64,000 bases of DNA from IMG/VR virus record IMGVR_UViG_3300023184_003179, positions 1 to 64,000 of that record. One strand, written 5' to 3'. The stretch comes from a virus. Below are positions 520 through 13,724 of the stretch, piece by piece; the stretch's first letter is position 1, and each line of letters opens with the position of its first letter. The notes under the pieces were generated by a model, which saw nothing but the letters and a program-made list of their open reading frames with translations, did no database searches and was not told where the DNA came from. The position numbers were made by a program, and so were the translations under genes.

Positions 520-670
520 AGATGGAATAAAATCAATACTTCTTGATATTGGACAGGATTTAAAAGTTCATAAACTAGATACGGACAATTATATTATTGA
601 TATAGAATATGACAAGTATACGATTAGAGTTATGGAATTATTTAAAGAATATTTAGAAGATAATGGCTAA
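494..670 (+). CDS. Small hypothetical protein (58 aa)
   Basis: An open frame of 58 codons from ATG 494 to TAA 668-670 fills the space between its neighbours, overlapping the previous gene by 26 bases and the following glycosyltransferase start (663) by 8. The product (starts MRFNLKNLEDG, ends KEYLEDNG) is acidic with alternating beta/alpha character. Evidence is the tight packing and the absence of any other coding frame here; function unknown. Confidence 0.6.
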   Translation: MRFNLKNLEDGIKSILLDIGQDLKVHKLDTDNYIIDIEYDKYTIRVMELFKEYLEDNG

Positions 671-1619
671 TATAGTTTTTCTTGGTAACTTTGAGGTATC
701 TTATAGTAGTGAGAATCATCATGCTAAGTCTTTAGAGTCTCTTGGACATACCGTTGAAAAATTGCAAGAAAAGAAAGCAACAAGCAAACAAATATTAAAA
801 AAAGCATTGCAGTCAAACCTATTTATATGGGTTCACACACATAGATGGAATACACCAGGATCAATTCTAATGGATGAAGTACTAAGACAATTAAACTCTG
901 CTGGTATTCCTACCATGACATACCATCTTGATTTATGGTTTGGAATTGAACGACAAAAAGATTTAGAGAATGATAACTTTTATAAAACAATTGGTCATTT
1001 CTTTACAGTTGATAAACTAATGGCTGATTGGTTTAATGAAAACACAAATGTAAAAGGACACTTTATTCCTGCTGGTGTTTATGATAAAGAATGTTATATA
1101 CATTCTGATTACGATGTTAATAATTTTGAAAATGATGTAATATTTGTTGGCAGCAGAGGCTATCATCATGAACATAAATATCGTCCAGAACTAATAGACT
1201 TTTTAAGAAAAACATATGGTAAAAGATTTCTTCATGTTGGTGGAGATGGGGATACTGGAACTGTTCGTGGAGATGCTTTAAATCGTATCTACGCAAAAAG
1301 CAAAGTAGCGATAGGAGATAGTTTAAATATTAACTTTAACTATCCTTACTACACTAGTGATAGGCTATTTGAAAGTACTGGTCGTGGTGGCTTTACCATT
1401 TACCCTCGTATTAAAGGTCTTGAAGAGTATTTTGAAGATAATAAAGAGATTATATTTTATGAGCATGGAAACTTTGATGATTTAAAAACAAAAATAGATC
1501 AATATCTTTTTGATGGAGTATCAAGAGAAAACATAAGAGTAAATGGGCATGAAAGAACAAAGAAAGAACATACCTATGTACACAGATGGGATGCAATAAT
1601 CAGAGAGTTGGGTATATAG
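663..1619 (+). CDS. GT-B type glycosyltransferase (CgeB/GT4-like)
   Basis: A 318-residue protein with an N-terminal Rossmann start (MANIVFLGNFEV) and a C-terminal domain resembling the Glyco_trans_1_2 half of CgeB-type GT-B enzymes: a beta strand NDVIFVGSRGY around residue 155, then a region ending in DRLFESTGRGGF (about residue 245), where the conserved E and glycine-rich turn bind the sugar nucleotide in this fold. It probably transfers a hexose to an unidentified acceptor. First gene of a coupled run of glycan genes ending at 7001; its ATG overlaps the preceding stop. The donor sugar cannot be read from sequence. Confidence 0.75.
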   Translation: MANIVFLGNFEVSYSSENHHAKSLESLGHTVEKLQEKKATSKQILKKALQSNLFIWVHTHRWNTPGSILMDEVLRQLNSAGIPTMTYHLDLWFGIERQKDLENDNFYKTIGHFFTVDKLMADWFNENTNVKGHFIPAGVYDKECYIHSDYDVNNFENDVIFVGSRGYHHEHKYRPELIDFLRKTYGKRFLHVGGDGDTGTVRGDALNRIYAKSKVAIGDSLNINFNYPYYTSDRLFESTGRGGFTIYPRIKGLEEYFEDNKEIIFYEHGNFDDLKTKIDQYLFDGVSRENIRVNGHERTKKEHTYVHRWDAIIRELGI

Positions 1620-2548
1620 TGAAAAGCATAGCAATTACTGGAGCAACTGGACTGCTTGGTTCTCATTTATCAAACCATTATCTTTCTTTGGGCTGGGATG
1701 TTTTTGTATTATTAAAGGATGAGCATAGCCGTACAGAACTTTCTAAAGATGTAAACAAGGTATATGGAAGTATTAATAATAAAATAGACATTGATTTCTT
1801 TATAGAAAAGTCAAGACCAGATTATTTTATTCATCTTGCAGCACAAACACAAGCATATGATTCAATCAAGTACCCATACAGTACTTTTTATACAAATGTA
1901 ATTGGCACACTAAATGTTCTTGAATCATTAAGAGAGTATAAAAAATGTAAATCAATTATCGTTGCATCTAGCGATAAAGCCTATGGTGAATTAACTAAAG
2001 ATGAATACTTTGAAGATCATATTTTAAATGGAGTTTATCCATATGATGCCTCTAAATCAATCACAGATATCATTTGTAACTCCTACAGAAATACTTACGA
2101 TATGCCTGTTATAACTACTCGTGCATGCAACATTTATGGAACTGGTGATAACAATGTTCAACGATTGATCCCTGGAATTGTAAGGGCATATAAAAACGAC
2201 GTATTATTTACCATAAGAAATGCTGGTAGAGATATTAGAGAGTATATAAATGTTAAAGATGTTGTGTCAGCATACTCCAACATACTTACATACGGAGAAA
2301 CAATTAATAACATTCCATCATTTAATATATCTTCTGGCGAAAGATATTCAACTCTTGAAGTATTTAACATTGTGCAAGACGTAATTGGTAAAAAAGTTAG
2401 ACATGAGATAGTTGCAAGTGATGGATTTGAAATTAAAAAACAATTTATGAATTCATCCTTACTACAAGAAAAAACTGGGTGGAAGTCAGAACATACTATG
2501 AAAGATACAATGAAAGAAATAGTTGATTTTTACATGGAGAACAAATGA
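1619..2548 (+). CDS. NAD-dependent sugar epimerase/dehydratase (extended SDR)
   Basis: Starting at GTG 1619, which overlaps the TAG of the previous gene, gives 309 residues with the usual length of extended short-chain dehydrogenases. Residues 8-14 carry the NAD-binding GATGLLG motif, 117-123 read SSDKAYG and the catalytic YxxxK is Y142-K146. The SSDKAYG stretch and the later ACNIYGTGDN segment resemble CDP-glucose/GDP-mannose 4,6-dehydratases. It probably makes a modified nucleotide sugar for the neighbouring transferases. An upstream in-frame start at 1586 is less likely because it lacks a plausible ribosome site. Confidence 0.85.
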   Translation: MKSIAITGATGLLGSHLSNHYLSLGWDVFVLLKDEHSRTELSKDVNKVYGSINNKIDIDFFIEKSRPDYFIHLAAQTQAYDSIKYPYSTFYTNVIGTLNVLESLREYKKCKSIIVASSDKAYGELTKDEYFEDHILNGVYPYDASKSITDIICNSYRNTYDMPVITTRACNIYGTGDNNVQRLIPGIVRAYKNDVLFTIRNAGRDIREYINVKDVVSAYSNILTYGETINNIPSFNISSGERYSTLEVFNIVQDVIGKKVRHEIVASDGFEIKKQFMNSSLLQEKTGWKSEHTMKDTMKEIVDFYMENK

Positions 2549-3054
2549 ATATAAACTTTGGATGTGGAAGCATTCAGCCACCTGATTGGATTAATATAGA
2601 TCTTGATCCAGAATATAAAACAGAACATAAAAACTTACATCTCATTACAGATGCATCAGCAGACATAATTGTTTCCCATGCAACAATTTGTTCAATACGG
2701 TATCATGAAATTAAAGCAACTTTATTAGAATTTTATAGAGTTTTAAAACCTAATGGAATACTTAGAATTAGTCTGCCAGATATTATTTCTGGATTTGATG
2801 CATATAAAAATAACAACATGAACTTTTTTCCTAACTCTGAGCATAATTTAGATAGACGTTTTTCTTCTTGGTTAACTTGGTATTCAACATCAGTATCATT
2901 ATTAACTGAAAAAGCATTAGAATATAAACTAAGTGATAGTGGATTTAAAAATATAACAAAAACACAATACAAACAAACCACATTTTCAAATAATAAATCT
3001 TATGAACTTGATACAAGAGAACATGAATTTTATTTTATTGAGGCAACCAAATGA
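2545..3054 (+). CDS. SAM-dependent methyltransferase, small class I
   Basis: 169 residues, starting at an ATGA overlap with the upstream SDR gene. Motif I is NINFGCG at residues 2-8, an acidic residue follows (NIDLDPEY), and the post-motif region FYRVLKPNGILRISLPD (about 72-88) is typical of class I methyltransferases acting on small molecules or sugars. It is shorter than most free-standing members and largely lacks a substrate lid. Substrate unknown; context suggests a sugar or glycan. Confidence 0.75.
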   Translation: MNINFGCGSIQPPDWINIDLDPEYKTEHKNLHLITDASADIIVSHATICSIRYHEIKATLLEFYRVLKPNGILRISLPDIISGFDAYKNNNMNFFPNSEHNLDRRFSSWLTWYSTSVSLLTEKALEYKLSDSGFKNITKTQYKQTTFSNNKSYELDTREHEFYFIEATK

Positions 3055-3758
3055 CAGGAATGATTAAGGCAACACTTAATGGTGAATTTGAAATGTTTCT
3101 TCCAAAGCATCGTGCAGACAGACCAGATTGGTATGAACCTGATGGATGGGAAAAACCTAGACTAAAATCAATGCATAATAATATTACCAATGGCGATGTT
3201 GTTTATTATGTTGGTGCAGAAGAAGGAGAGTTTCCAGCACTTTGTCAAATGTGGGGAGCAGAAGTAGTTTTATTTGAACCAAACCCCAAAGTATGGTCAC
3301 ATTTTCCTGCAACTTGGACTGCAAATAATTTAGAACTTCCATTAGTTTGTATTCCTGGATTTGCTTCTGATAAAATAAACAGCCTTGCACGTATTTATTA
3401 TAATGAATGGCCACCAGAAGTTGATAATGAACTTATAGCAGCACATGGATTTAAAGAGTTATATCTTGAAGGTGATTCATATGGTCAAATTACTATAGAT
3501 TCATGTGTATATGATCACGGGATTAAACCACCTACCGCAATTTCTTTAGATGTAGAAGGTAGTGAATGGCGAGTCTTAGGAGGGGCTGAGAAGGTTCTTA
3601 AAGAGTATAAGCCTAAGATATGGCTATCTGGACATCCTGAATTTATGTTGCAACAATGGAATGAATCTTTATATAATCTTAGACAATGGATAAAAGAATT
3701 GGGTTACAAAGAAGTATTACTTGACTATCAACATGAGGTTCATTTATTTTATGAATAG
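3051..3758 (+). CDS. FkbM-family methyltransferase
   Basis: 235 residues starting at an ATGA overlap with the preceding gene. Recognisable FkbM features are the SAM site GDVVYYVGAEEGEF (about residue 44), VVLFEPNP (around 72) and the late ISLDVEGSEWRVL motif (around 164) that is diagnostic for the family. FkbM enzymes O-methylate sugars and other small molecules and are frequent in polysaccharide clusters, which fits the surrounding transferases. Confidence 0.85.
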   Translation: MTGMIKATLNGEFEMFLPKHRADRPDWYEPDGWEKPRLKSMHNNITNGDVVYYVGAEEGEFPALCQMWGAEVVLFEPNPKVWSHFPATWTANNLELPLVCIPGFASDKINSLARIYYNEWPPEVDNELIAAHGFKELYLEGDSYGQITIDSCVYDHGIKPPTAISLDVEGSEWRVLGGAEKVLKEYKPKIWLSGHPEFMLQQWNESLYNLRQWIKELGYKEVLLDYQHEVHLFYE

Positions 3759-4368
3759 TCTTATTTTTTCTCCACACACAGACGATGCAATTTTTTCTTT
3801 AGGCGATCATATCATTGATAATGATCATAATTTTACTATTGCATCCGCATTTGCTGGGATACCAACAGATGATGTTGGATATAAAAAACACACTACGTTG
3901 AGACAGGAACATTCTGAAGCCTGTTCTATGATTAATGCTAAAGTTATTAATGGAGACTTATTAGATGATGTTTATGGAAAACAGAATGAAGATGATTTAA
4001 CTAATTGGATAAAAAATACTATAATAAATTTTGACAATGTATATATTCCATTGGGAATTCATCATCCAGATCATGTTTTTTTATCAGATATTTTATTCAA
4101 TTTAATGAAAGATTTTAATAAAACATATTTTGTTTATGCTGAGTTACCATATAGATTATTATATCCAGAATTACATAGAACAAGATTAAGAATCTTTGAA
4201 TCAAACCATATTTTAGAAAATGTTAGTATTAACTTTACACAACATAAAATTAATGCAATAAAAAAATATAACTCACAGATAACATACGCACAAAATCCAT
4301 CATACATAGATGAAGATTTAATTGGTAAACTTGTTGTAGAAGAAAAACTTTGGAGAGTAGTAAATTGA
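3751..4368 (+). CDS. PIG-L/LmbE-family deacetylase
   Basis: The ATG at 3751 overlaps the previous stop by 8 bases and yields 205 residues. The zinc-binding motif PHTDD sits near the N terminus (FSPHTDDAIFSLG, residues 6-18), and a second family motif LGIHHPDH follows near residue 100. PIG-L enzymes remove N-acetyl groups from GlcNAc-containing conjugates; in actinobacteria relatives act in mycothiol and glycan synthesis. In this cluster it would create free amino sugars. Earlier in-frame starts at 3721 and 3733 lie inside the FkbM gene and are not favoured. Confidence 0.85.
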   Translation: MNSLIFSPHTDDAIFSLGDHIIDNDHNFTIASAFAGIPTDDVGYKKHTTLRQEHSEACSMINAKVINGDLLDDVYGKQNEDDLTNWIKNTIINFDNVYIPLGIHHPDHVFLSDILFNLMKDFNKTYFVYAELPYRLLYPELHRTRLRIFESNHILENVSINFTQHKINAIKKYNSQITYAQNPSYIDEDLIGKLVVEEKLWRVVN

Positions 4369-5213
4369 TAAATGCATACTTATACTCTTTTAATGAAGAG
4401 GATTGTGCTGCTGATAAATGGGATTATGGTCTTCTCAAAGAAGTTTTTGATAAATATAATATAGATCAAATAAAAGTAACTTCTATTCCTAAAGTTGATC
4501 GTGGATTTGTTGTTGTTCCTGGACCACAAAATCTTGGATACGAAGATAATGTTAACAAAGAAATACAAAACCTTTCTAGACTTGTGTTATTTATTACGGG
4601 GGATGAAGAAAGCAGATTTGATATAAGTAAGATTAACCATCCTAATGCTGAAATATGGGTTCAATATTTTAATGAAAGCAATAAACAATATAATAAATTG
4701 CCTATTGGAGTCCCCCAACATTTAAAACAATTTATTCCAGATTATCCTATTAAGAATTATGATTTATATTTTGGTGGTCAAATAACTCATTCAAGAAGAA
4801 AACAGTTGGCAAAGGCTATAGAGACAATGCCAAATACCCTTTATAAGCCTACAGCAGGCTTTGCACAGGGCGATCAGGCAATAGACTACTACCGCAACCT
4901 TGCTAGTGCTAGGATTGCTCCAGCACCATCTGGGGCAGTTACAATAGATTCCTTTAGATTTTTTGAGGCTATAGAAATGTTATGTTTACCAATAGGAGAT
5001 AGTGTTGATTCAAAAAATAGGAATATTGATTTTTATAATATTTTGTTTGAAGGAAATATACCAGTTAATTTTGTTTCTAATTGGGCTGATTTACGTTTTT
5101 TGGTTCCTGAACTATTAAATCAATACCCTCACAATATGCATAAGGTGGTATGCTGGTGGATAAAGTATAAGCGAGATCTTGGAATAAAACTAATGAGGCA
5201 AATTAATGAATAA
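4365..5213 (+). CDS. Exostosin-like (GT47-type) glycosyltransferase
   Basis: TTG at 4365 overlaps the upstream TGA and has GGAGAG eight bases before it, better than the frame start at 4350. The 282-residue product has the pattern of exostosin-like domains: NYDLYFGGQITHSRRKQL (around residue 140), then ARIAPAPSGAVTIDSFRFFE (around 188), matching the LCPxGxxxxSxRxxEAI core that binds the nucleotide sugar. Function as a glycosyltransferase is inferred from that core and from its neighbours; the donor is not known. Confidence 0.65.
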   Translation: MINAYLYSFNEEDCAADKWDYGLLKEVFDKYNIDQIKVTSIPKVDRGFVVVPGPQNLGYEDNVNKEIQNLSRLVLFITGDEESRFDISKINHPNAEIWVQYFNESNKQYNKLPIGVPQHLKQFIPDYPIKNYDLYFGGQITHSRRKQLAKAIETMPNTLYKPTAGFAQGDQAIDYYRNLASARIAPAPSGAVTIDSFRFFEAIEMLCLPIGDSVDSKNRNIDFYNILFEGNIPVNFVSNWADLRFLVPELLNQYPHNMHKVVCWWIKYKRDLGIKLMRQINE

Positions 5214-5967
5214 AAATGATGTAACAATTATTTTAGCAACATCTGTTTTACCAAGTCACCCAGACACAAAAATTATTGATGAAACTATTAAATCTATTAG
5301 GTTTCATTTTCCAAAAAATGAAATCATAATGCAAATTGATGGATTACGAAGAGAACAAATGGATCGTGAAATAGATTACAATGAATATAAAAATAAAATT
5401 CTTTGGAAATGTATGCATGAATATCAGAACATACTTCCAATAATATTTGATAAGCATAGTCATCAAAGCACAATGATGCGTAAGACTATTGATGATATTC
5501 AAACATCTGTTTTGCTTTATGTTGAAGGTGATGCCCCACTAACTACAGATGTAGAGATTGATTGGCAAAAATGTTTTGATATGCTTGGATATGAAAAAGC
5601 AAATACAATTCGTTTTCACCATGAATCTTTTATACCAGAGCCACACAATCATTTAATGTTTGGCTTTGATGATTGTTTTATTAGAACGTCTCAGTGGAGT
5701 CAAAGACCACACCTTAGCAAGGTTTCATATTATAGAGAAGTAATACTTCCACCACTTGAAGATAAAGTATTTATTGAAGATACAACTCATGGAAGAATTC
5801 AAGATGAAATTTCTCCATATAATAATTTTAACAAAGAGGGTTGGGATAAACATAAATTATGGATATACCATCCAGAAGGAAACATTAAAAGATCTTATCA
5901 TTTAGATGGTCGTGAAAATGGAAGAAAGTTTACATCAGATGATGATGTTTGGTTTAATAAAAAATGA
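5206..5967 (+). CDS. Probable GT-A (family 2-like) glycosyltransferase
   Basis: 253 residues starting with an 8-base overlap with the previous gene. The N terminus (DVTIILATSVLPSHP) is a GT-A beta strand, an ETIKSIRFHFP helix follows, and YVEGDAPLTTD around residue 104 is in the place of the metal-binding DxD motif (here EGDAP). The protein is shorter than many family 2 enzymes and the DxD is degenerate, so activity is not certain. Confidence 0.6.
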   Translation: MNKNDVTIILATSVLPSHPDTKIIDETIKSIRFHFPKNEIIMQIDGLRREQMDREIDYNEYKNKILWKCMHEYQNILPIIFDKHSHQSTMMRKTIDDIQTSVLLYVEGDAPLTTDVEIDWQKCFDMLGYEKANTIRFHHESFIPEPHNHLMFGFDDCFIRTSQWSQRPHLSKVSYYREVILPPLEDKVFIEDTTHGRIQDEISPYNNFNKEGWDKHKLWIYHPEGNIKRSYHLDGRENGRKFTSDDDVWFNKK

Positions 5968-7001
5968 GACTAGGAATTATTGCTAGATCAGATAACACTG
6001 GACTTGGAAATCAAACAAAAGAACTTGTTGATATGCTAAAGCCAGATAAAATATTACTAATAGATTCAACACCATTTAATAAAAATAAACAGCACCCAGA
6101 ATGGTACAGCGAATATAACTGTATTAGATCAACTGGATTTCCAACCTTACAACAAATAAAACTATTTCTTGCTGATATTGATGTTGTTATTAGTTGTGAA
6201 ACATTTTATGATCAAAACTTTATAAAATATGCAAAAAAATATGGTGTAAAAACTATACTTCAATACAATTATGAACTTTTTGCAAATCTAGCAGCACCAA
6301 ACCTTGCACTACCAGATGTTCTTTTATCTCCAAGCGTTTGGCATATTGATCATGTTAAAAAACTTTTTCGCAACCAAACTAAAGTTATACATTTGCCACC
6401 ACCAACCAATTCTTTAACTTTTTCTAACGCTAAAGAAATAAACATGTCAAAATCGCATAGCAGACTTTTGCATATTGCTGGTAAAAAAGCAGCAAAAGAT
6501 AGAAATGGAACTAATAGTGTTCTTGAAATGCTTAAATATTCTAAAGCAGATTATGAATTAGTTATTAGAAGCCAGAGTGAAATAGAAACAAATATTAAAG
6601 ATTCAAGGCTTACGATAGAGATAGACAACATAAAGGATAGAGAAGATATGTATAGTGGATTTGATGCTATGGTTCTTCCTAGACGATATGCTGGTCTTTG
6701 TTTACCTATGAATGAGGCTCTTATGAGTGCCCTGCCAGTTTTTATGACTGACATATCTCCTAATAACGCAATCCTGCCAAAAGAATGGTTAGTTAAATCT
6801 CATTCTTTGGGTACTTTTAGAACAAAGGCTAGAATTGAATTATTTGAAGCAGATATAAAAACTTTTGCAATGACTATTGATGATTACTTTATTAATCAAG
6901 ATAAGAATATAAATAAACAAAATGCATTTAATATAGGATATACAAACTTTGCACCAGAAAATTTAAACAATAGTTATTTAGATATTATTTCTCATATTTA
7001 G
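5964..7001 (+). CDS. GT-B glycosyltransferase (GT4-like)
   Basis: 345 residues, ATGA overlap with the gene before. N-terminal Rossmann start RLGIIARSDNTGLGNQ, a mid-protein linker with PDVLLSPSVWHIDHV, and a C-terminal nucleotide-sugar domain with MVLPRRYAGLCLPMNEAL (around residue 237), where the E of NEAL corresponds to the conserved EX7E glutamate of GT4 enzymes. Last gene of the plus-strand cluster; its 3' end overlaps the convergent minus-strand gene by 17 bases. Confidence 0.75.
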   Translation: MRLGIIARSDNTGLGNQTKELVDMLKPDKILLIDSTPFNKNKQHPEWYSEYNCIRSTGFPTLQQIKLFLADIDVVISCETFYDQNFIKYAKKYGVKTILQYNYELFANLAAPNLALPDVLLSPSVWHIDHVKKLFRNQTKVIHLPPPTNSLTFSNAKEINMSKSHSRLLHIAGKKAAKDRNGTNSVLEMLKYSKADYELVIRSQSEIETNIKDSRLTIEIDNIKDREDMYSGFDAMVLPRRYAGLCLPMNEALMSALPVFMTDISPNNAILPKEWLVKSHSLGTFRTKARIELFEADIKTFAMTIDDYFINQDKNINKQNAFNIGYTNFAPENLNNSYLDIISHI

Positions 7002-8201: not shown

Positions 8202-8561
8202 TTAATCCTTTGTTATATTTTCTGGAAGTAATTCCATAAGTTTTTTTGAGTAATGATTAAGACCTTGATTTTTTAATTCTTCTGAAACTTCTTTAATTGT
8301 TTTTTGAGATGTTTCAATATATTCAAATGCCCAATCTCTTGAGTCAGATAAGAATTTTATAAAGTTTTCCTTATGTACTACATCGTCAGACTGAGTGTCA
8401 ATGTTTTTATTTTGAAGAATAATCTCTTTTAATCCTTCATTTTCAAGGAACAGTTTTGTAATAGCAAGATTACATTTTTTTAATTTATCAAATAAAGATA
8501 AATATGCAATTGCAAAAGATATTGACATTGTTGCAAAAAACATTAAAATACCAGTTCTCAT
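8202..8561 (-). CDS. Single-pass membrane protein with coiled coil
   Basis: 119 residues: an N-terminal helix (GILMFFATMSISFAIAYL) followed by charged helical sequence with heptad-like spacing (about 27-110). The start has no ribosome-binding site but lies 7 bases after TACAAT, suggesting a leaderless transcript. It may be an inner-membrane protein acting with the neighbouring microproteins. No family is recognised. Confidence 0.6.
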   Translation of the reverse strand: MRTGILMFFATMSISFAIAYLSLFDKLKKCNLAITKLFLENEGLKEIILQNKNIDTQSDDVVHKENFIKFLSDSRDWAFEYIETSQKTIKEVSEELKNQGLNHYSKKLMELLPENITKD

Positions 8562-8591: not shown

Positions 8592-8723
8592 TTAAAAATC
8601 ATCTTCTTCAATATTAAATAAATCTAGTTCAGATAGTCTGCTCATTCTTGAAGCAAAAAACAAAGAAAATGCAATAATGCTTGAAATTATTGCTAATATT
8701 AATATTGTTATCTTTTTTTTCAT
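8592..8723 (-). CDS. 43-residue membrane peptide
   Basis: ATG 8723 has GGAGGAAC about 10 bases upstream. The product starts MKKKITILILAIISSIIAF, one membrane helix or an uncleaved signal sequence, and ends in an acidic tail (NIEEDDF). It overlaps the TGA of the DUF1660 gene upstream as ATGA. Function unknown. Confidence 0.6.
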   Translation of the reverse strand: MKKKITILILAIISSIIAFSLFFASRMSRLSELDLFNIEEDDF

Positions 8724-8839
8724 TTTTCTATTGTTCCTCCACATCTTAAACATCCCATATAGGTTTTACCAGTAAATGGACAGGATCCAGCATCAAACAA
8801 GTTATGTTTTTTAATCTTACAAATAAGTAACTTAATCAT
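8720..8839 (-). CDS. DUF1660-like zinc-ribbon protein (39 aa)
   Basis: Frame from ATG 8839 (GGAGAG upstream) to TGA 8720. The product contains SCPFTGKTYMGCLRCG, the hallmark pattern of DUF1660 prophage proteins, with four cysteines (positions 7, 20, 30, 33) that could bind zinc. The start overlaps the end of the halogenase-like gene. Its function is not known in any phage. Confidence 0.75.
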   Translation of the reverse strand: MIKLLICKIKKHNLFDAGSCPFTGKTYMGCLRCGGTIEK

Positions 8840-10433
8840 TATAATATCTCTCCTTTAAATACTCATACATTGTTGGTGACTCTTTTGCAATTTTTTCCCA
8901 TTCGTTTTTCCTATAATCAGATATTGTAAAATAATCTTTCATTGTTTCTGAATAATCAACATTATAAGAAATTTCTCCAATTCGTGAAAAAACATTATCT
9001 AATATAAAATAGTTCATTCCAGTTGCGATACATGTCATTGCAAGATTATATCCAGTACCGCCAACAGTATCATGTGTTCTAGTTTTCATTTCATATAACG
9101 CAAACAAGTTTGAAGAAAGTTCTTTCTTTTTATCTATATTATCAAAAGAGTACACCCTTTCACTATTTGATTTCCAATATTCAGAATCATCTCTTATGCT
9201 TAAGCAATAATGAACTATTATAAAGTCAACAAAAGAGTCATAGATTCTTTTATTAACTTCGTTGTAGTTGTGTATATTCCACGATGTAATTTTTTCCTGT
9301 TTTAATACACTTACAAGATTAAATAAAAACTCATGAACAGTAAATAAACCATTTGACTCTAATGGTTCAATAAAACCAGCAGACAAACCTATTGCTGCAA
9401 CATTTTTAACCCAAGTTCTTTTATGTATGCCAACACGCATTTTTAAATTATTAAAATTTAAATTATTTATTTCTTTTTTTGATATCTTGTTTGTTGAATC
9501 TTTACTTAATAGATATTCTTTAAATTCTTTAAGTGCATCTTCATCACTTGTAAATTTATCACTATAAACATATCCAGTACCTATACGAGAATACAAAGGA
9601 GTGTGCCAAACCCATCCATTTTTTAACGCAGTGCAAGTTGTAACAGTAAGCATTTCTTTATTTTTATCCTTATATTGAATTTGCACAGCCCATGCACTAT
9701 TATTTGGTAGTTTATTTGTATAATCTATGAACTCTTCATTTAATGATTTTCCAAGCAACAAACTATTAAATCCAGTGCAATCAATATATAAATCTGCTGT
9801 TATTTTTTTCCCATTATCTAATAATAAATATTTAATTCCATCATCATCTGTTTCTACATGAATAACTTCTGCAAGTATATTTTTTACACCACGGACTTTT
9901 GCATATTTTTCTTTTAGCCATAATGCAAATTTTTGTGCATCAAAATTTAATGCTGTGTTAATTCTTGGATCAAAAGCAGGCAACTGACCATCTTTATTAT
10001 CACAAAAAGTATTATTTTCAATAAGATGTGCTACTGGGAAGTATGTTTGTGCAAAGTCAGTAACTGGAACTGAGTCATCTTTGTATTTTTTAATTAACCA
10101 ATCTTGCATACCCCATTTAGTTTCTTCAAGGTATGGCCTGCCAAATGGATACAAAAATGATGTATTATCTTTTTTATAAAAATTTTTAAATCTAAGTCCT
10201 AGTTTTATTGACGCATCTGTAAATTTAATAAAATCGTTTTTATCTATTCCCAAGTATTCAAAATAATAATTAATTCCATCAAAAGTGCTTTCTCCAACAC
10301 CAATTGTTGGTATATTTGGACTCTCAATAAGTTTTATATTTTTATTTGGAAAGTCTTTAATTAAAATTGATGCTGTCATCCATCCAGCAGATCCGCCACC
10401 AACAATTACAATATCGTTAATTATTTTTGACAT
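8832..10433 (-). CDS. Flavin-dependent tryptophan halogenase-like enzyme
   Basis: 533 residues, full length for the family (PF04820). FAD site GGGSAGW is at residues 12-18, the GWxWxIP signature appears as GWVWHTPL (273-280), SAGFIEPLES (351-360) places E356 at the catalytic-glutamate position of PrnA-type enzymes, and K77 (in DASIKLGLRF) is positioned like the catalytic lysine. Family members oxidise chloride, bromide or iodide using FADH2 and halogenate an aromatic substrate; marine phage versions are known. No flavin reductase is visible, so reduced flavin would come from the host. It lies in an operon with sugar and phosphodiester genes, so the substrate need not be tryptophan. Confidence 0.88.
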   Translation of the reverse strand: MSKIINDIVIVGGGSAGWMTASILIKDFPNKNIKLIESPNIPTIGVGESTFDGINYYFEYLGIDKNDFIKFTDASIKLGLRFKNFYKKDNTSFLYPFGRPYLEETKWGMQDWLIKKYKDDSVPVTDFAQTYFPVAHLIENNTFCDNKDGQLPAFDPRINTALNFDAQKFALWLKEKYAKVRGVKNILAEVIHVETDDDGIKYLLLDNGKKITADLYIDCTGFNSLLLGKSLNEEFIDYTNKLPNNSAWAVQIQYKDKNKEMLTVTTCTALKNGWVWHTPLYSRIGTGYVYSDKFTSDEDALKEFKEYLLSKDSTNKISKKEINNLNFNNLKMRVGIHKRTWVKNVAAIGLSAGFIEPLESNGLFTVHEFLFNLVSVLKQEKITSWNIHNYNEVNKRIYDSFVDFIIVHYCLSIRDDSEYWKSNSERVYSFDNIDKKKELSSNLFALYEMKTRTHDTVGGTGYNLAMTCIATGMNYFILDNVFSRIGEISYNVDYSETMKDYFTISDYRKNEWEKIAKESPTMYEYLKERYYND

Positions 10434-10663
10434 TATTTTATTGCCTCTCTAGTTACTAAAATAACTGCTCCACAATCTTCTAAAGCCTTTTTTAATTTTA
10501 CCACATACTGCAAGGCTGATATTTTATCATCATGCCCCATATATAAAAACTTTTTTTCATCCAATTTTATTGTAAGAAAATATTCATTGTCAATAACTTC
10601 TACACTAAAATTTTTAGGTGCATTTATAGAATGAAATGCTTTTCTCATGTTATCTGTATACAT
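10433..10663 (-). CDS. Small hypothetical protein next to the halogenase
   Basis: 76 residues, no recognised domain. Predicted alternating beta strands (FSVEVIDNEYFLTIKLDEKKFLY broken here only by turns) and a C-terminal helix ending in AVILVTREAIK. It is coupled to both neighbours by overlapping stop/start codons, so it is likely co-expressed with the halogenase-like enzyme. Confidence 0.7.
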   Translation of the reverse strand: MYTDNMRKAFHSINAPKNFSVEVIDNEYFLTIKLDEKKFLYMGHDDKISALQYVVKLKKALEDCGAVILVTREAIK

Positions 10664-11103
10664 TATTCATTCCAATACATATAGTCACTACAAATGCCAG
10701 CAGGTAAAACATTAAAATCTTTAACATTTGGCTTATCTAAGTGTACCAAAATTGACTGAGAAGATACTTCTTTTTCTGGGTAAGTCCAAATATATTTTGT
10801 ATTTGTTAACGTATAGTCATCATTATTATGATAAAAATAATTAACATCTTCAAATTTTGATAAAAATGTTAGTGCTTCTAGGTTTTTACAATGAAACCAT
10901 CCACGATTTCCAATTTGATTAATAAAAGGTTTATCAATTTGTGTTTTTGGTCTGTCATGACCCAAATATATTAAATTATTAACAACCCATATATCAATTT
11001 CAACATCAAATCCTTCTTGCAATGCAAACAAAATTGATTCAATTGTATTTTCATTTTTTGGATCTGGACCATTAAGATTACCTCTATGTGAAATTTTTTT
11101 CAT
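10663..11103 (-). CDS. Glycerophosphodiester phosphodiesterase-like protein
   Basis: 146 residues with the N-terminal half of a GDPD barrel: SHRGN (5-9), ENTIESILFALQEGFDVEID (18-37) and YLGHDRP (47-53), matching the HRG, ENT and EID catalytic/metal motifs. It is much shorter than the usual 230-250 residue enzymes, so it may be a minimal version or a fragment. GDPD enzymes cleave glycerophosphodiesters; relatives with unusual substrates occur in polysaccharide clusters. Confidence 0.72.
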   Translation of the reverse strand: MKKISHRGNLNGPDPKNENTIESILFALQEGFDVEIDIWVVNNLIYLGHDRPKTQIDKPFINQIGNRGWFHCKNLEALTFLSKFEDVNYFYHNNDDYTLTNTKYIWTYPEKEVSSQSILVHLDKPNVKDFNVLPAGICSDYMYWNE

Positions 11104-11435
11104 TACAATGTTCTTTCTATAACTACTTTATCATTTGTAATATTAGGAGATTTTATGCAAATTATTTCACAGTCTTCTAAAAACTCTGGATCAGCAATTT
11201 CTAATTGCTCTAAAACAAAAACATCTCCAGACATTAAAGTTTTTCCTTGTATTGTCATCTTGCCACGAACAAGCAAATTAATTTCATCTAAATGCTCGTG
11301 ATAATGCCAATCCCATTTTTCATTTTTTTTATGTATTTTATAAGATACTTCAAAGCCATTTGTTTTATATGCAGCAGGTTCAAAATTTCCAATAAACCAG
11401 CCACCAATATAATCTTCAATTCTTGTTATTTTCAT
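11103..11435 (-). CDS. Cupin-fold protein
   Basis: 110 residues with cupin motif 1 WHYHEHLDEINLLVRGKM (about 43-60: two His and a Glu for metal) and motif 2 with GDVFVLEQLEIADPEF (about 69-84). Single-domain cupins act as sugar isomerases/epimerases, dioxygenases or small-ligand binders. Its overlap with the nucleotidyltransferase-HAD gene suggests a sugar-related step. The second-motif histidine is not obvious, which lowers certainty about metal catalysis. Confidence 0.75.
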   Translation of the reverse strand: MKITRIEDYIGGWFIGNFEPAAYKTNGFEVSYKIHKKNEKWDWHYHEHLDEINLLVRGKMTIQGKTLMSGDVFVLEQLEIADPEFLEDCEIICIKSPNITNDKVVIERTL

Positions 11436-12526
11436 AAACCATAAGTCTTCCAGTTAATATTTTTAAATCCACTATCAGTTAATAAATTAATTGCAACTGC
11501 ACGATCATTATCTAACTCTTTTAGTTTATCATTTAAAAGAACTCTTGTCCCACTGGTAATCCCCATTAATAAATAGTCCCAACAAAATCCAAGTTCTGTT
11601 AATTGTTTTTCTGTAATATATCTTGCAGATTCTTTTCTTGCTGTTGTTAAAATAATTTTATACCCTAAAGTATCCCACTCATTAAACTTATCAATAGTTC
11701 CAGGAAGTTCTAAAGCATCTTCTTTTCCTATATGACTAAACTTGTGTGCATGTTTTAATATTGTTCCATCAATATCGCAAAATATTGTTTTTGGTTTTTT
11801 TGTATAATATTCTTTAATTTTAGCAACATATATATCAAGATCCTCTGGAGTACCTAAAGAGATATATGAATTTTGCGGAGCATAAAACGGAACAATAGTT
11901 TTACCGATATCTATTAGGTATTGATAGGTAGTTGATATATAACTTTCAGTATTACTAAATAAATTATTAATTAAATTTTCAGCACTAGAAACAAAATCTT
12001 TTCCATGCTTCCAATAATGCAGACCAACTAAAGCGTCATCACTTATTACTTCCTTTTCTTTAATTTTAGTAATTTTATTATCATTAATAATTACATAACT
12101 ATGTTTTATGTTGTTTGATTTATGTAGTACAACGCAACCATCGCCATCAGTATTTTCTATAAAATTAGAAAAGTTATTTAAATCCCAATCAAAAATTTGA
12201 TCACAATTTGTTATTATTAGCCCTTCTTCATTATTGATTAATTCTTTTGCATAAAGGCATGTTTCTGCAGGACCAGATGTTAAAAAATTAATTTTAATTT
12301 CAATACTATTTGGTTTTATCTTTTTTAATAAAGCGCTTAAATCTTGGTTATATTTTTTATCTTCATACTCTTTTGTAATAAAGATATAGTTTGCATCAAT
12401 ATTTATTGATGAAAGAGAATGCTCAATAAGAGTTTTATTATTTACTTTTATAAGTGGTTTCGGCATATCAATGCCAACTTTAGAAAATCTTGTTCCAAGA
12501 CCAGCAATAGGAATAACAATGTTCAT
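11432..12526 (-). CDS. Sugar nucleotidyltransferase fused to HAD phosphatase
   Basis: 364 residues in two parts. Residues 1-235 form a sugar-phosphate nucleotidyltransferase with MNIVIPIAGLGTRF at the start (GxGTR phosphate loop) and KPLIKV. Residues from about 244 form a HAD phosphohydrolase with FCDIDGTIL (DxDGT nucleophile motif) and ILTTARKE (motif II). Such a fusion could make a nucleotide-activated sugar and dephosphorylate a precursor. Start overlaps the GT61-like gene and its stop overlaps the cupin start. Confidence 0.85.
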   Translation of the reverse strand: MNIVIPIAGLGTRFSKVGIDMPKPLIKVNNKTLIEHSLSSINIDANYIFITKEYEDKKYNQDLSALLKKIKPNSIEIKINFLTSGPAETCLYAKELINNEEGLIITNCDQIFDWDLNNFSNFIENTDGDGCVVLHKSNNIKHSYVIINDNKITKIKEKEVISDDALVGLHYWKHGKDFVSSAENLINNLFSNTESYISTTYQYLIDIGKTIVPFYAPQNSYISLGTPEDLDIYVAKIKEYYTKKPKTIFCDIDGTILKHAHKFSHIGKEDALELPGTIDKFNEWDTLGYKIILTTARKESARYITEKQLTELGFCWDYLLMGITSGTRVLLNDKLKELDNDRAVAINLLTDSGFKNINWKTYGL

Positions 12527-13440
12527 TGTTTTAATCCTAAACTATTTAATTTATGAACTACATTGTCTGCATCATTATTAATATTTGGAATACCTAGATA
12601 TGTTTGATTTTTTAAAAAAGTAAGTAGATTATAAAAATAGTGTAATTGTTTTGTGTTTTTTTCAAGTATCTTTTTATCTGCTGATGTGATGTCTAAGGTA
12701 TTTGGTGTCATAATTTCTAAAACTAAAGTATTTTCTTGCATGAATATAGCGTTAGTTAATCCTGCACCACTTACAGATGCTAGTGTTTTAACGCTATAAA
12801 AATAATCAATTTGTTCTTTAAAACTTTTAAAATCTTCTGAATAAATAGTTTCAAATCCAAGATCATTAAAACATTTTTCTACTTTATTATTATTGCTAAT
12901 TCCCCTATTATCTTTTCTGGATAGGTAAACATTTTTATATGGTTTTACACTTAAATCATTTATGCTATTTTTATAAAAATTAAAAACTGTTTCAGGGATA
13001 TTAATCTTGCCATTGGGAAAAGACTTAACAGCAAAAAAATTATTTGCATGTATAACTGTATCCTTATTGCAGTTAATCAATTCATAGTCAATGTTATTAT
13101 TTTTTAAAAAATCAATAAAAAAATTATAAAATGAACAATTTTGGTAGTCAGCAATTTGTGAAATATCAAGAACAAAAATACAATCTTTTATTGTTTCATA
13201 ATATCCAAATAATATACCTAAAGAATCATTATGAAAATGATAGTAGTTTGGGTCTAATGAAATAAATATTTTTTTTCTTGGAGATACAAACTTTAAAAAA
13301 TTTTCAGTTATTGTAATTGTATTGCTAAGATTTGGAGATAAAAGTGGAATTGATAAATTATTAATAGTAATTTGATGAATATCAGAATAAAACTGAATAT
13401 CTGATATTTTTTTTGAATCTTTTAGAATTGTGTATATCAT
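12523..13440 (-). CDS. GT61/DUF563-like glycosyltransferase
   Basis: 305 residues. The C-terminal half has the DUF563 signature: VYLSRKDNRG (about 170), GFETIYSEDF (about 194), and SVSGAGLTNAIFMQENTLVL (about 219-238), equivalent to the GAGLTN...F core of GT61 enzymes. The N-terminal half is divergent. Inferred role is sugar transfer onto the product of this operon or onto a glycan. ATG overlaps the WhiB stop. Confidence 0.75.
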   Translation of the reverse strand: MIYTILKDSKKISDIQFYSDIHQITINNLSIPLLSPNLSNTITITENFLKFVSPRKKIFISLDPNYYHFHNDSLGILFGYYETIKDCIFVLDISQIADYQNCSFYNFFIDFLKNNNIDYELINCNKDTVIHANNFFAVKSFPNGKINIPETVFNFYKNSINDLSVKPYKNVYLSRKDNRGISNNNKVEKCFNDLGFETIYSEDFKSFKEQIDYFYSVKTLASVSGAGLTNAIFMQENTLVLEIMTPNTLDITSADKKILEKNTKQLHYFYNLLTFLKNQTYLGIPNINNDADNVVHKLNSLGLKQ

Positions 13441-13724
13441 TTTTCTTCCATTGTTAAAGAGGTCCAGATATCTGACCAGTCTTTTTTAGTTTTATGTTTG
13501 TTAAATTCTCTTGAAATTTCTCCAGTTTCAAGATAAACTCCACCCCAAACACCCCACTCTTTGCCAGAAACGCCATTTGCAAAGCATGTTTTTCTAACTG
13601 GACATTGCTTGCAAAGCGCATCAACGTTAGGTCTAATGCTTTCATTATCTTCATATTTATCAAAATATAAATTTGTTTCAAGACCTAAACAAGCAGCCTG
13701 ATCTTTCCATAAGTGCTGCTTCAA
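13437..13724 (-). CDS. whiB: WhiB-family iron-sulfur transcription factor
   Basis: 95 residues with the four cluster-binding cysteines at 12, 38, 41 and 47 (C-x25-C-x2-C-x5-C) and the GVWGGVYL turn (58-65) before a basic C-terminal stretch. WhiB proteins are essentially confined to actinobacteria and their phages, where phage copies can displace or repress host regulators. This is one of the strongest clues to the host. Confidence 0.95.
   Translation of the reverse strand: MKQHLWKDQAACLGLETNLYFDKYEDNESIRPNVDALCKQCPVRKTCFANGVSGKEWGVWGGVYLETGEISREFNKHKTKKDWSDIWTSLTMEEK

Follow-up and report, generated by a model that had tools for sequence, protein, structure and literature searches.

The window analysed here comprises bases 1-64000 of a virus record spanning 88,586 bases (IMG/VR record IMGVR_UViG_3300023184_003179), and its 8832-13440 segment carries a homologue of flavin-dependent halogenases (PF04820) next to a 76-aa protein (U76), a GT61 glycosyltransferase, a nucleotidyltransferase fused to an HAD phosphatase (NTP-HAD), a cupin-like protein and a short protein similar to glycerophosphodiester phosphodiesterases (GDPD-like). 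A first-pass annotation of the window had taken these six genes as one operon, possibly for a halogenated or otherwise modified glycan. Our comparison shows the core genes WhiB, U76 and HP8202 framing two exchangeable slots, of which slot A here holds the sugar genes and slot B the halogenase; the segment is probably a modular locus for cargo genes in a freshwater actinophage and not one dedicated pathway.

Core genes and exchangeable slots

Relatives of U76 were obtained from at least 535 IMG/VR loci, with or without halogenase and sugar genes, and none were detected in the annotated phage collection. Across the best 80 of the at least 535 loci, the genes keep to the order WhiB, slot A, U76, slot B, HP8202, and more core genes flank them on both sides; U76 itself belongs to the core genes of a large family of freshwater actinophages. 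The 76-residue protein counted in the operon by the first-pass annotation is thus present, but as a family core gene it does not belong to a cargo pathway; it was also rejected as a halogenase partner, since U76 mostly occurs without a halogenase. The AlphaFold model of U76 (pLDDT 93.3) gave no PDB match at E<0.001 in the structure search.

Slot A can be as short as about 5 bp or as long as 3.4 kb, and many loci have it empty. In the closest relatives of the window, L008 and L009, the slot A sugar genes are kept and slot B has no halogenase. Slot B halogenases were found in 13 loci with a measurable slot A, which is empty in five and occupied in eight, and the presence of the halogenase is independent of the state of slot A (Fisher p=0.36). 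The glycan genes and the halogenase therefore lie in separate slots, each occurring without the other, and their adjacency in the window does not show a joint pathway.

Sampling with the GDPD-like protein gave 25 loci, including a near-copy of the window (24 others). NTP relatives were present in 25/25, with cupin relatives near the NTP or GDPD-like genes in about half, and a halogenase occurred only in the near-copy and in L012. Across the 29 loci with a GDPD-like gene, a halogenase was likewise restricted to the window phage's own copies and L012; the NTP-HAD, GDPD-like and often the cupin genes thus travel together without it. Sampling with the halogenase covered the best 80 of at least 589 loci, 79 of them besides the near-copy of the window, and relatives of the window NTP, cupin, GDPD-like and GT61 genes were found in 0/79, so the search for the same gene order in other phages, proposed with the first-pass annotation, went against a shared arrangement. 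Matches to phrog_3980 near halogenases were considered as relatives of the window NTP and rejected, being RmlA-like genes of a different operon. Similar NTP transferase/HAD and GDPD-like clusters are carried by the cyanophages S-SM2 and B23, where the GDPD-like gene adjoins a nucleotidyltransferase or a gene annotated as phosphoheptose isomerase, together with polysaccharide genes; unlike the window, the stretches seen hold no halogenase. The slot A module would most likely activate a sugar and transfer it to a surface or virion glycan, probably independently of the halogenase.

In other loci slot A contains, for example, sulfotransferases together with an APS-kinase-like gene, or else a methyltransferase, a DUF6065-like gene or an Asp/Asn hydroxylase. 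The APS-kinase-like gene was observed in many relatives (e.g., L082:6190-7038, L072:1404-2216, L086:7249-7977), several of which also carry a sulfotransferase, and the pair possibly forms a phage sulfation cassette.

The slot B halogenase and its relatives

The slot B protein scored 343 bits against PF04820, for which the curated cut-off is 21, and its best PDB match was VirX1 of cyanophage Syn10 (6QGM; residues 5-531, E=6e-93). The GxGxxG dinucleotide-binding motif is present as GGGSAGW at residues 12-18, two alignments of phage homologues, with 12 and 8 sequences, show no variation at K77 or E356, and F354, P357, S360 and G362 of the FxxPxxSxG tunnel motif are invariant in alignment A9. The tryptophan motif reads WVWHTP, a WxWxIP variant in which W274, W276 and the proline are kept and Ile is replaced by Thr, a residue also found at this position in other phage halogenases (WVWNTP). 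The full-length PF04820 homologue named by the first-pass annotation was accordingly recovered, and sequence comparison places it with the cyanophage VirX1 type.

The FAD, WxW, Lys, Glu and FxxPxxSxG residues are shared with VirX1, but the window protein is 38% identical to it in the alignment, reads WVWHTP where Syn10 has WVWNIP, and sits in an actinophage slot whereas VirX1 belongs to a cyanophage. Halogenases are already known in phages (PMC3037559, PMC10452541, PMC9964418). The tryptophan-halogenase-like genes of cyanophages and pelagiphages (phrog_2928) belong to the same protein family and are likewise sporadic cargo (PMC3037559, PMC10452541), but they adjoin 2OG-Fe(II) oxygenases and virion genes, which the window copy does not.

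The tryptophan halogenases of the PDB align to the window protein only up to about residue 425-442, whereas VirX1 aligns to residue 531, suggesting that the C-terminal region is not of the tryptophan-halogenase type; on this sequence comparison, the tryptophan-binding C-terminal region of those enzymes was not found in it. These alignment extents bear on a first alternative, in which the halogenase acts independently of its neighbours on a small aromatic compound of the host, be it tryptophan, indole or some other secondary metabolite, and thereby alters host physiology or competitors. In vitro VirX1, whose active site is open, can halogenate a large number of small aromatic and heteroaromatic compounds (PMC8407142), and phage halogenases are generally classed among the auxiliary metabolic genes for host metabolites (PMC10452541). 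Given the different C-terminal region, and with no biosynthetic partner gene near the window halogenase, we consider this role conceivable but rather unlikely.

In a quick phylogenetic tree, seven of the eight slot B halogenase representatives group together and the window copy falls far off, in the VirX1/cyanophage-type clade, so slot B appears on this tree to have received halogenases at least twice. The other slot B halogenases of the family (e.g., L045, L046, L050, L083, L086) share the place between U76 and HP8202, but are 23-29% identical to the window copy and form a separate clade. The sister of the window halogenase comes from the same phage family (L182), where it follows a DUF6065-like gene at another place. 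A second VirX1-like halogenase, 46% identical to the window copy, is encoded in the same phage record (G000:86149-87741, equal to L004:4149-5741), directly after a DUF6065-like gene (L004:3390-4121) and with a collagen-like gene (L004:1828-2562) within 2 kb. A specific tie of the DUF6065-like gene to slot B halogenases was rejected (7/13 loci with versus 24/70 without a halogenase, p=0.22), though it does occur near halogenases elsewhere (random-anchor p=0.054).

No host donor of the halogenase was found, because few of the 80 genome loci align over the full length, one of these few (L276) resembles phage DNA, and no actinobacterial record is among these loci. A shorter second PF04820 family of about 396 aa was also observed (L126:4409-5599), and in 28/79 loci its cluster of related open reading frames (ORFs) is found no more than 2.5 kb from the halogenase.

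Recurrent neighbours and candidate substrates

The 2OG-Fe(II) oxygenase family PHROG_81 was matched by 39 of 106 immediate halogenase neighbours, compared with 5 of the 56 ORFs lying beyond 5 kb (p=9e-5), and a stricter random-anchor test in the same loci gave 43/69 against 34.9 expected (p=0.0025). Gly-rich proteins of the tail-fibre type were detected in 38/79 halogenase loci and in none of the control loci (0/80 U76-sampled, 0/24 GDPD-sampled and 0/79 RmlA-sampled, 0/183 in all), and, moving away from the halogenase, their density drops from 0.149 to 0.018 per kb. Up to five Gly-rich genes stand in tandem directly beside halogenases, at L150:3376-8974 and in 35 other halogenase loci. The substrate is the least certain point of our interpretation; we lean slightly towards a protein or glycoprotein, of phage or host, over a free sugar, since the genes found beside the closest relatives encode 2OG-Fe(II) oxygenases and Gly-rich proteins of the tail-fibre type.

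Sugar genes of other types also adjoin phage halogenases. In L127, L130/L131 and L144, a VirX1-like halogenase overlaps RmlA and precedes RmlD-like, DegT/RfbH-like and epimerase genes, and in L371/L444 it lies between the RmlD-like gene and DegT; RmlA and RmlB exceed their NCBIfam cut-offs, while RfbH falls below its own. When 79 new RmlA-sampled loci were examined together with L144 and L127 (81 loci), the gene after RmlA was RmlD-like in 37, DegT in 24 and a halogenase in 12. Six representatives of these halogenases (L130, L127, L144, L362, L371, L402) form one clade (99 SH-aLRT, 51-74% identity), suggesting that the halogenase was kept in the deoxysugar operon through deep divergence. They resemble the window copy in being VirX1-like and beside sugar-nucleotide genes, but the sugar genes are non-homologous to those of the window, the halogenases form a separate clade, and the phage group is another one, which carries T4-like replication genes. 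In the actinophage DSL-LC01 (L506; PMC10611076), the halogenase overlaps a GT2 gene by 4 bp, with collagen-like and YHYH-domain genes on the other side, and a NodU-type carbamoyltransferase gene follows the halogenase of L123. A link of some phage halogenases to sugars is therefore supported, via other sugar genes and another halogenase clade. No paper on halogenases inside phage sugar operons turned up in the open-licence literature. A WhiB gene and a pyrimidine dimer glycosylase gene were also noticed nearby in DSL-LC01.

These independent analogues speak for the first-pass proposal that the window halogenase and glycan genes jointly make a halogenated, or halogenase-oxidised, glycan or glycoconjugate, to which the tight adjacency and likely co-transcription of the window genes may be added. 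As an account of the window neighbourhood, the proposal nevertheless looks unlikely: the sugar genes of the analogues share no homology with those of the window, the window halogenase stands outside that clade, a halogenase is missing from most RmlA operons, slots A and B vary independently in the window's own phage family, and the established targets of flavin-dependent halogenases are electron-rich aromatic groups and not sugars (PMC8407142). That the protein is an oxygenase-type flavoprotein maturing another protein, like LodB, GoxB or QhpG, and not a halogenase in vivo is very improbable, as its weak similarity to those models (E=8e-10, 2e-5 and 2e-8, respectively), the 2OG-Fe(II) oxygenases and fibre genes beside its relatives and the WVWHTP form of the WxWxIP motif are countered by scores far below all three curated cut-offs, by the retention of both motif tryptophans, K77, E356 and the FxxPxxSxG residues, and by a nearest solved relative, VirX1, that is a demonstrated halogenase (PMC8407142).

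Under the modular-cargo interpretation, and by analogy with VirX1 and other flavin-dependent halogenases (PMC8407142), the slot B enzyme would use FADH2 supplied by the host and form hypohalous acid from O2 and halide, and the acid would move through the tunnel to K77 and halogenate an electron-rich aromatic group. Several points weigh against parts of this interpretation. Host supply of FADH2 is assumed because the reductase family PF01613 was not found in the phage record, where other flavin reductase families were not searched. Gly-rich and 2OG-Fe(II) genes are absent near the window copy (the 2OG-Fe(II) families PF13640 and PF13759 were not found in the phage record), and tail-fibre regions are known cargo hot spots, as in the cyanophage case (PMC3037559), so the association of halogenases with them may be positional. 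The loci are best-scoring matches and not a random sample, the control sets differ in phage type, and the halogenase tree carries SH-aLRT support only, without bootstraps. Finally, given that the genes of the two slots overlap and that their co-transcription is probable, this particular phage may use them jointly.

A wider idea, which we advance only tentatively and regard as doubtful, is that VirX1-like phage halogenases tailor the surface structures of phages, acting on fibre proteins or the glycans attached to them in concert with 2OG-Fe(II) oxygenases, DUF6065-like proteins and the products of sugar-nucleotide or glycosyltransferase genes; both halogenases of the window phage, in slot B and near the collagen-like gene, might then serve this end, with the slot A module supplying sugar to the same structure. 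The comparison separates recurrent from accidental gene company, in that the window sugar genes are independent cargo, whereas the Gly-rich fibre genes, the 2OG-Fe(II) oxygenases and the one-clade deoxysugar operon recur. For the natural substrates of phage halogenases, these recurrent neighbours give a short list of testable proteins and pathways.

Gene layout and neighbouring features

The six ORFs with start/stop overlaps were confirmed on the − strand, with junctions overlapping by 1 or 4 bp (Table 1). WhiB overlaps the GT61 gene in like manner, so the gene run is longer than six. Overlap was rejected as evidence of a special operon because it is routine in the window, where 42 of 74 same-strand neighbour pairs overlap or abut.

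Table 1. Coordinates of the genes at the locus and of the comparable deoxysugar operon; positions without a prefix refer to the window.
Feature	Position	Strand	Evidence or remark
WhiB-like regulator, core gene, upstream bound of slot A	13437..13724	-	PF02467 E=4e-12; order WhiB, slot A, U76 conserved in U76 loci
GT61 glycosyltransferase, slot A cargo	12523..13440	-	PF04577 E=2e-19; also in slot A of L008 and L009
Sugar-1-phosphate nucleotidyltransferase fused to HAD phosphatase (NTP-HAD), slot A cargo	11432..12526	-	PF00483 (NTP_transferase) E=7e-9; PF03767 E=5e-7
Small cupin-like protein, slot A cargo	11103..11435	-	phrog_24762 E=9e-29 (no function assigned to the phrog)
Short GDPD-like protein, slot A cargo	10663..11103	-	Conserved motif and structure match
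U76, 76-aa core gene dividing slots A and B, not cargo	10433..10663	-	IMG/VR relatives
VirX1-like flavin-dependent halogenase (predicted), slot B cargo	8832..10433	-	PF04820 E=3e-102; phrog_2928 E=1e-130
Small core protein downstream of slot B	8592..8753	-	Homologues downstream of U76 in most U76 loci
HP8202, core gene, downstream bound of slot B	8202..8561	-	Homologues at same relative place in most U76 loci
dTDP-deoxysugar operon with embedded halogenase (RmlB, RmlA, RmlD-like, RfbH-like, epimerase)	L130:965-6369; L144:3563-8318; L371		Halogenase position varies

The functional assignments of the first-pass annotation stood to differing degrees. Those of the halogenase, GT61 and NTP-HAD are well supported, the NTP-HAD being weakly similar to the HddC and RmlA models with scores below the model cut-offs, while those of the cupin and GDPD-like proteins are weaker than had been stated, with only sub-threshold Pfam cupin matches for the former (best E=0.05) and no Pfam match for the latter. 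The 146-aa GDPD-like protein contains the motif HRGN...ENT...EID...GHD, in which H6, R7, E18, E35, D37 and H49 are invariant in 19 homologues, and by sequence the catalytic and metal residues expected of a glycerophosphodiester phosphodiesterase (H6, R7, E35, D37 and H49) are all present. Its AlphaFold model (pLDDT 95.7) had as best PDB match in Foldseek a GDPD, 1zcc, with a probability of 0.99 but E=0.021 and TM 0.43, which makes a full TIM barrel at most a tentative assignment.

A glycan island on the + strand (window 663-7001) faces the locus and comprises glycosyltransferases, an NAD-epimerase, an FkbM methyltransferase and a PIG-L-type deacetylase, with several of its genes common across the phage family. 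A lytic-transglycosylase-like ORF, judged by eye, was also seen amid virion genes on the + strand at L003:14621-15193.

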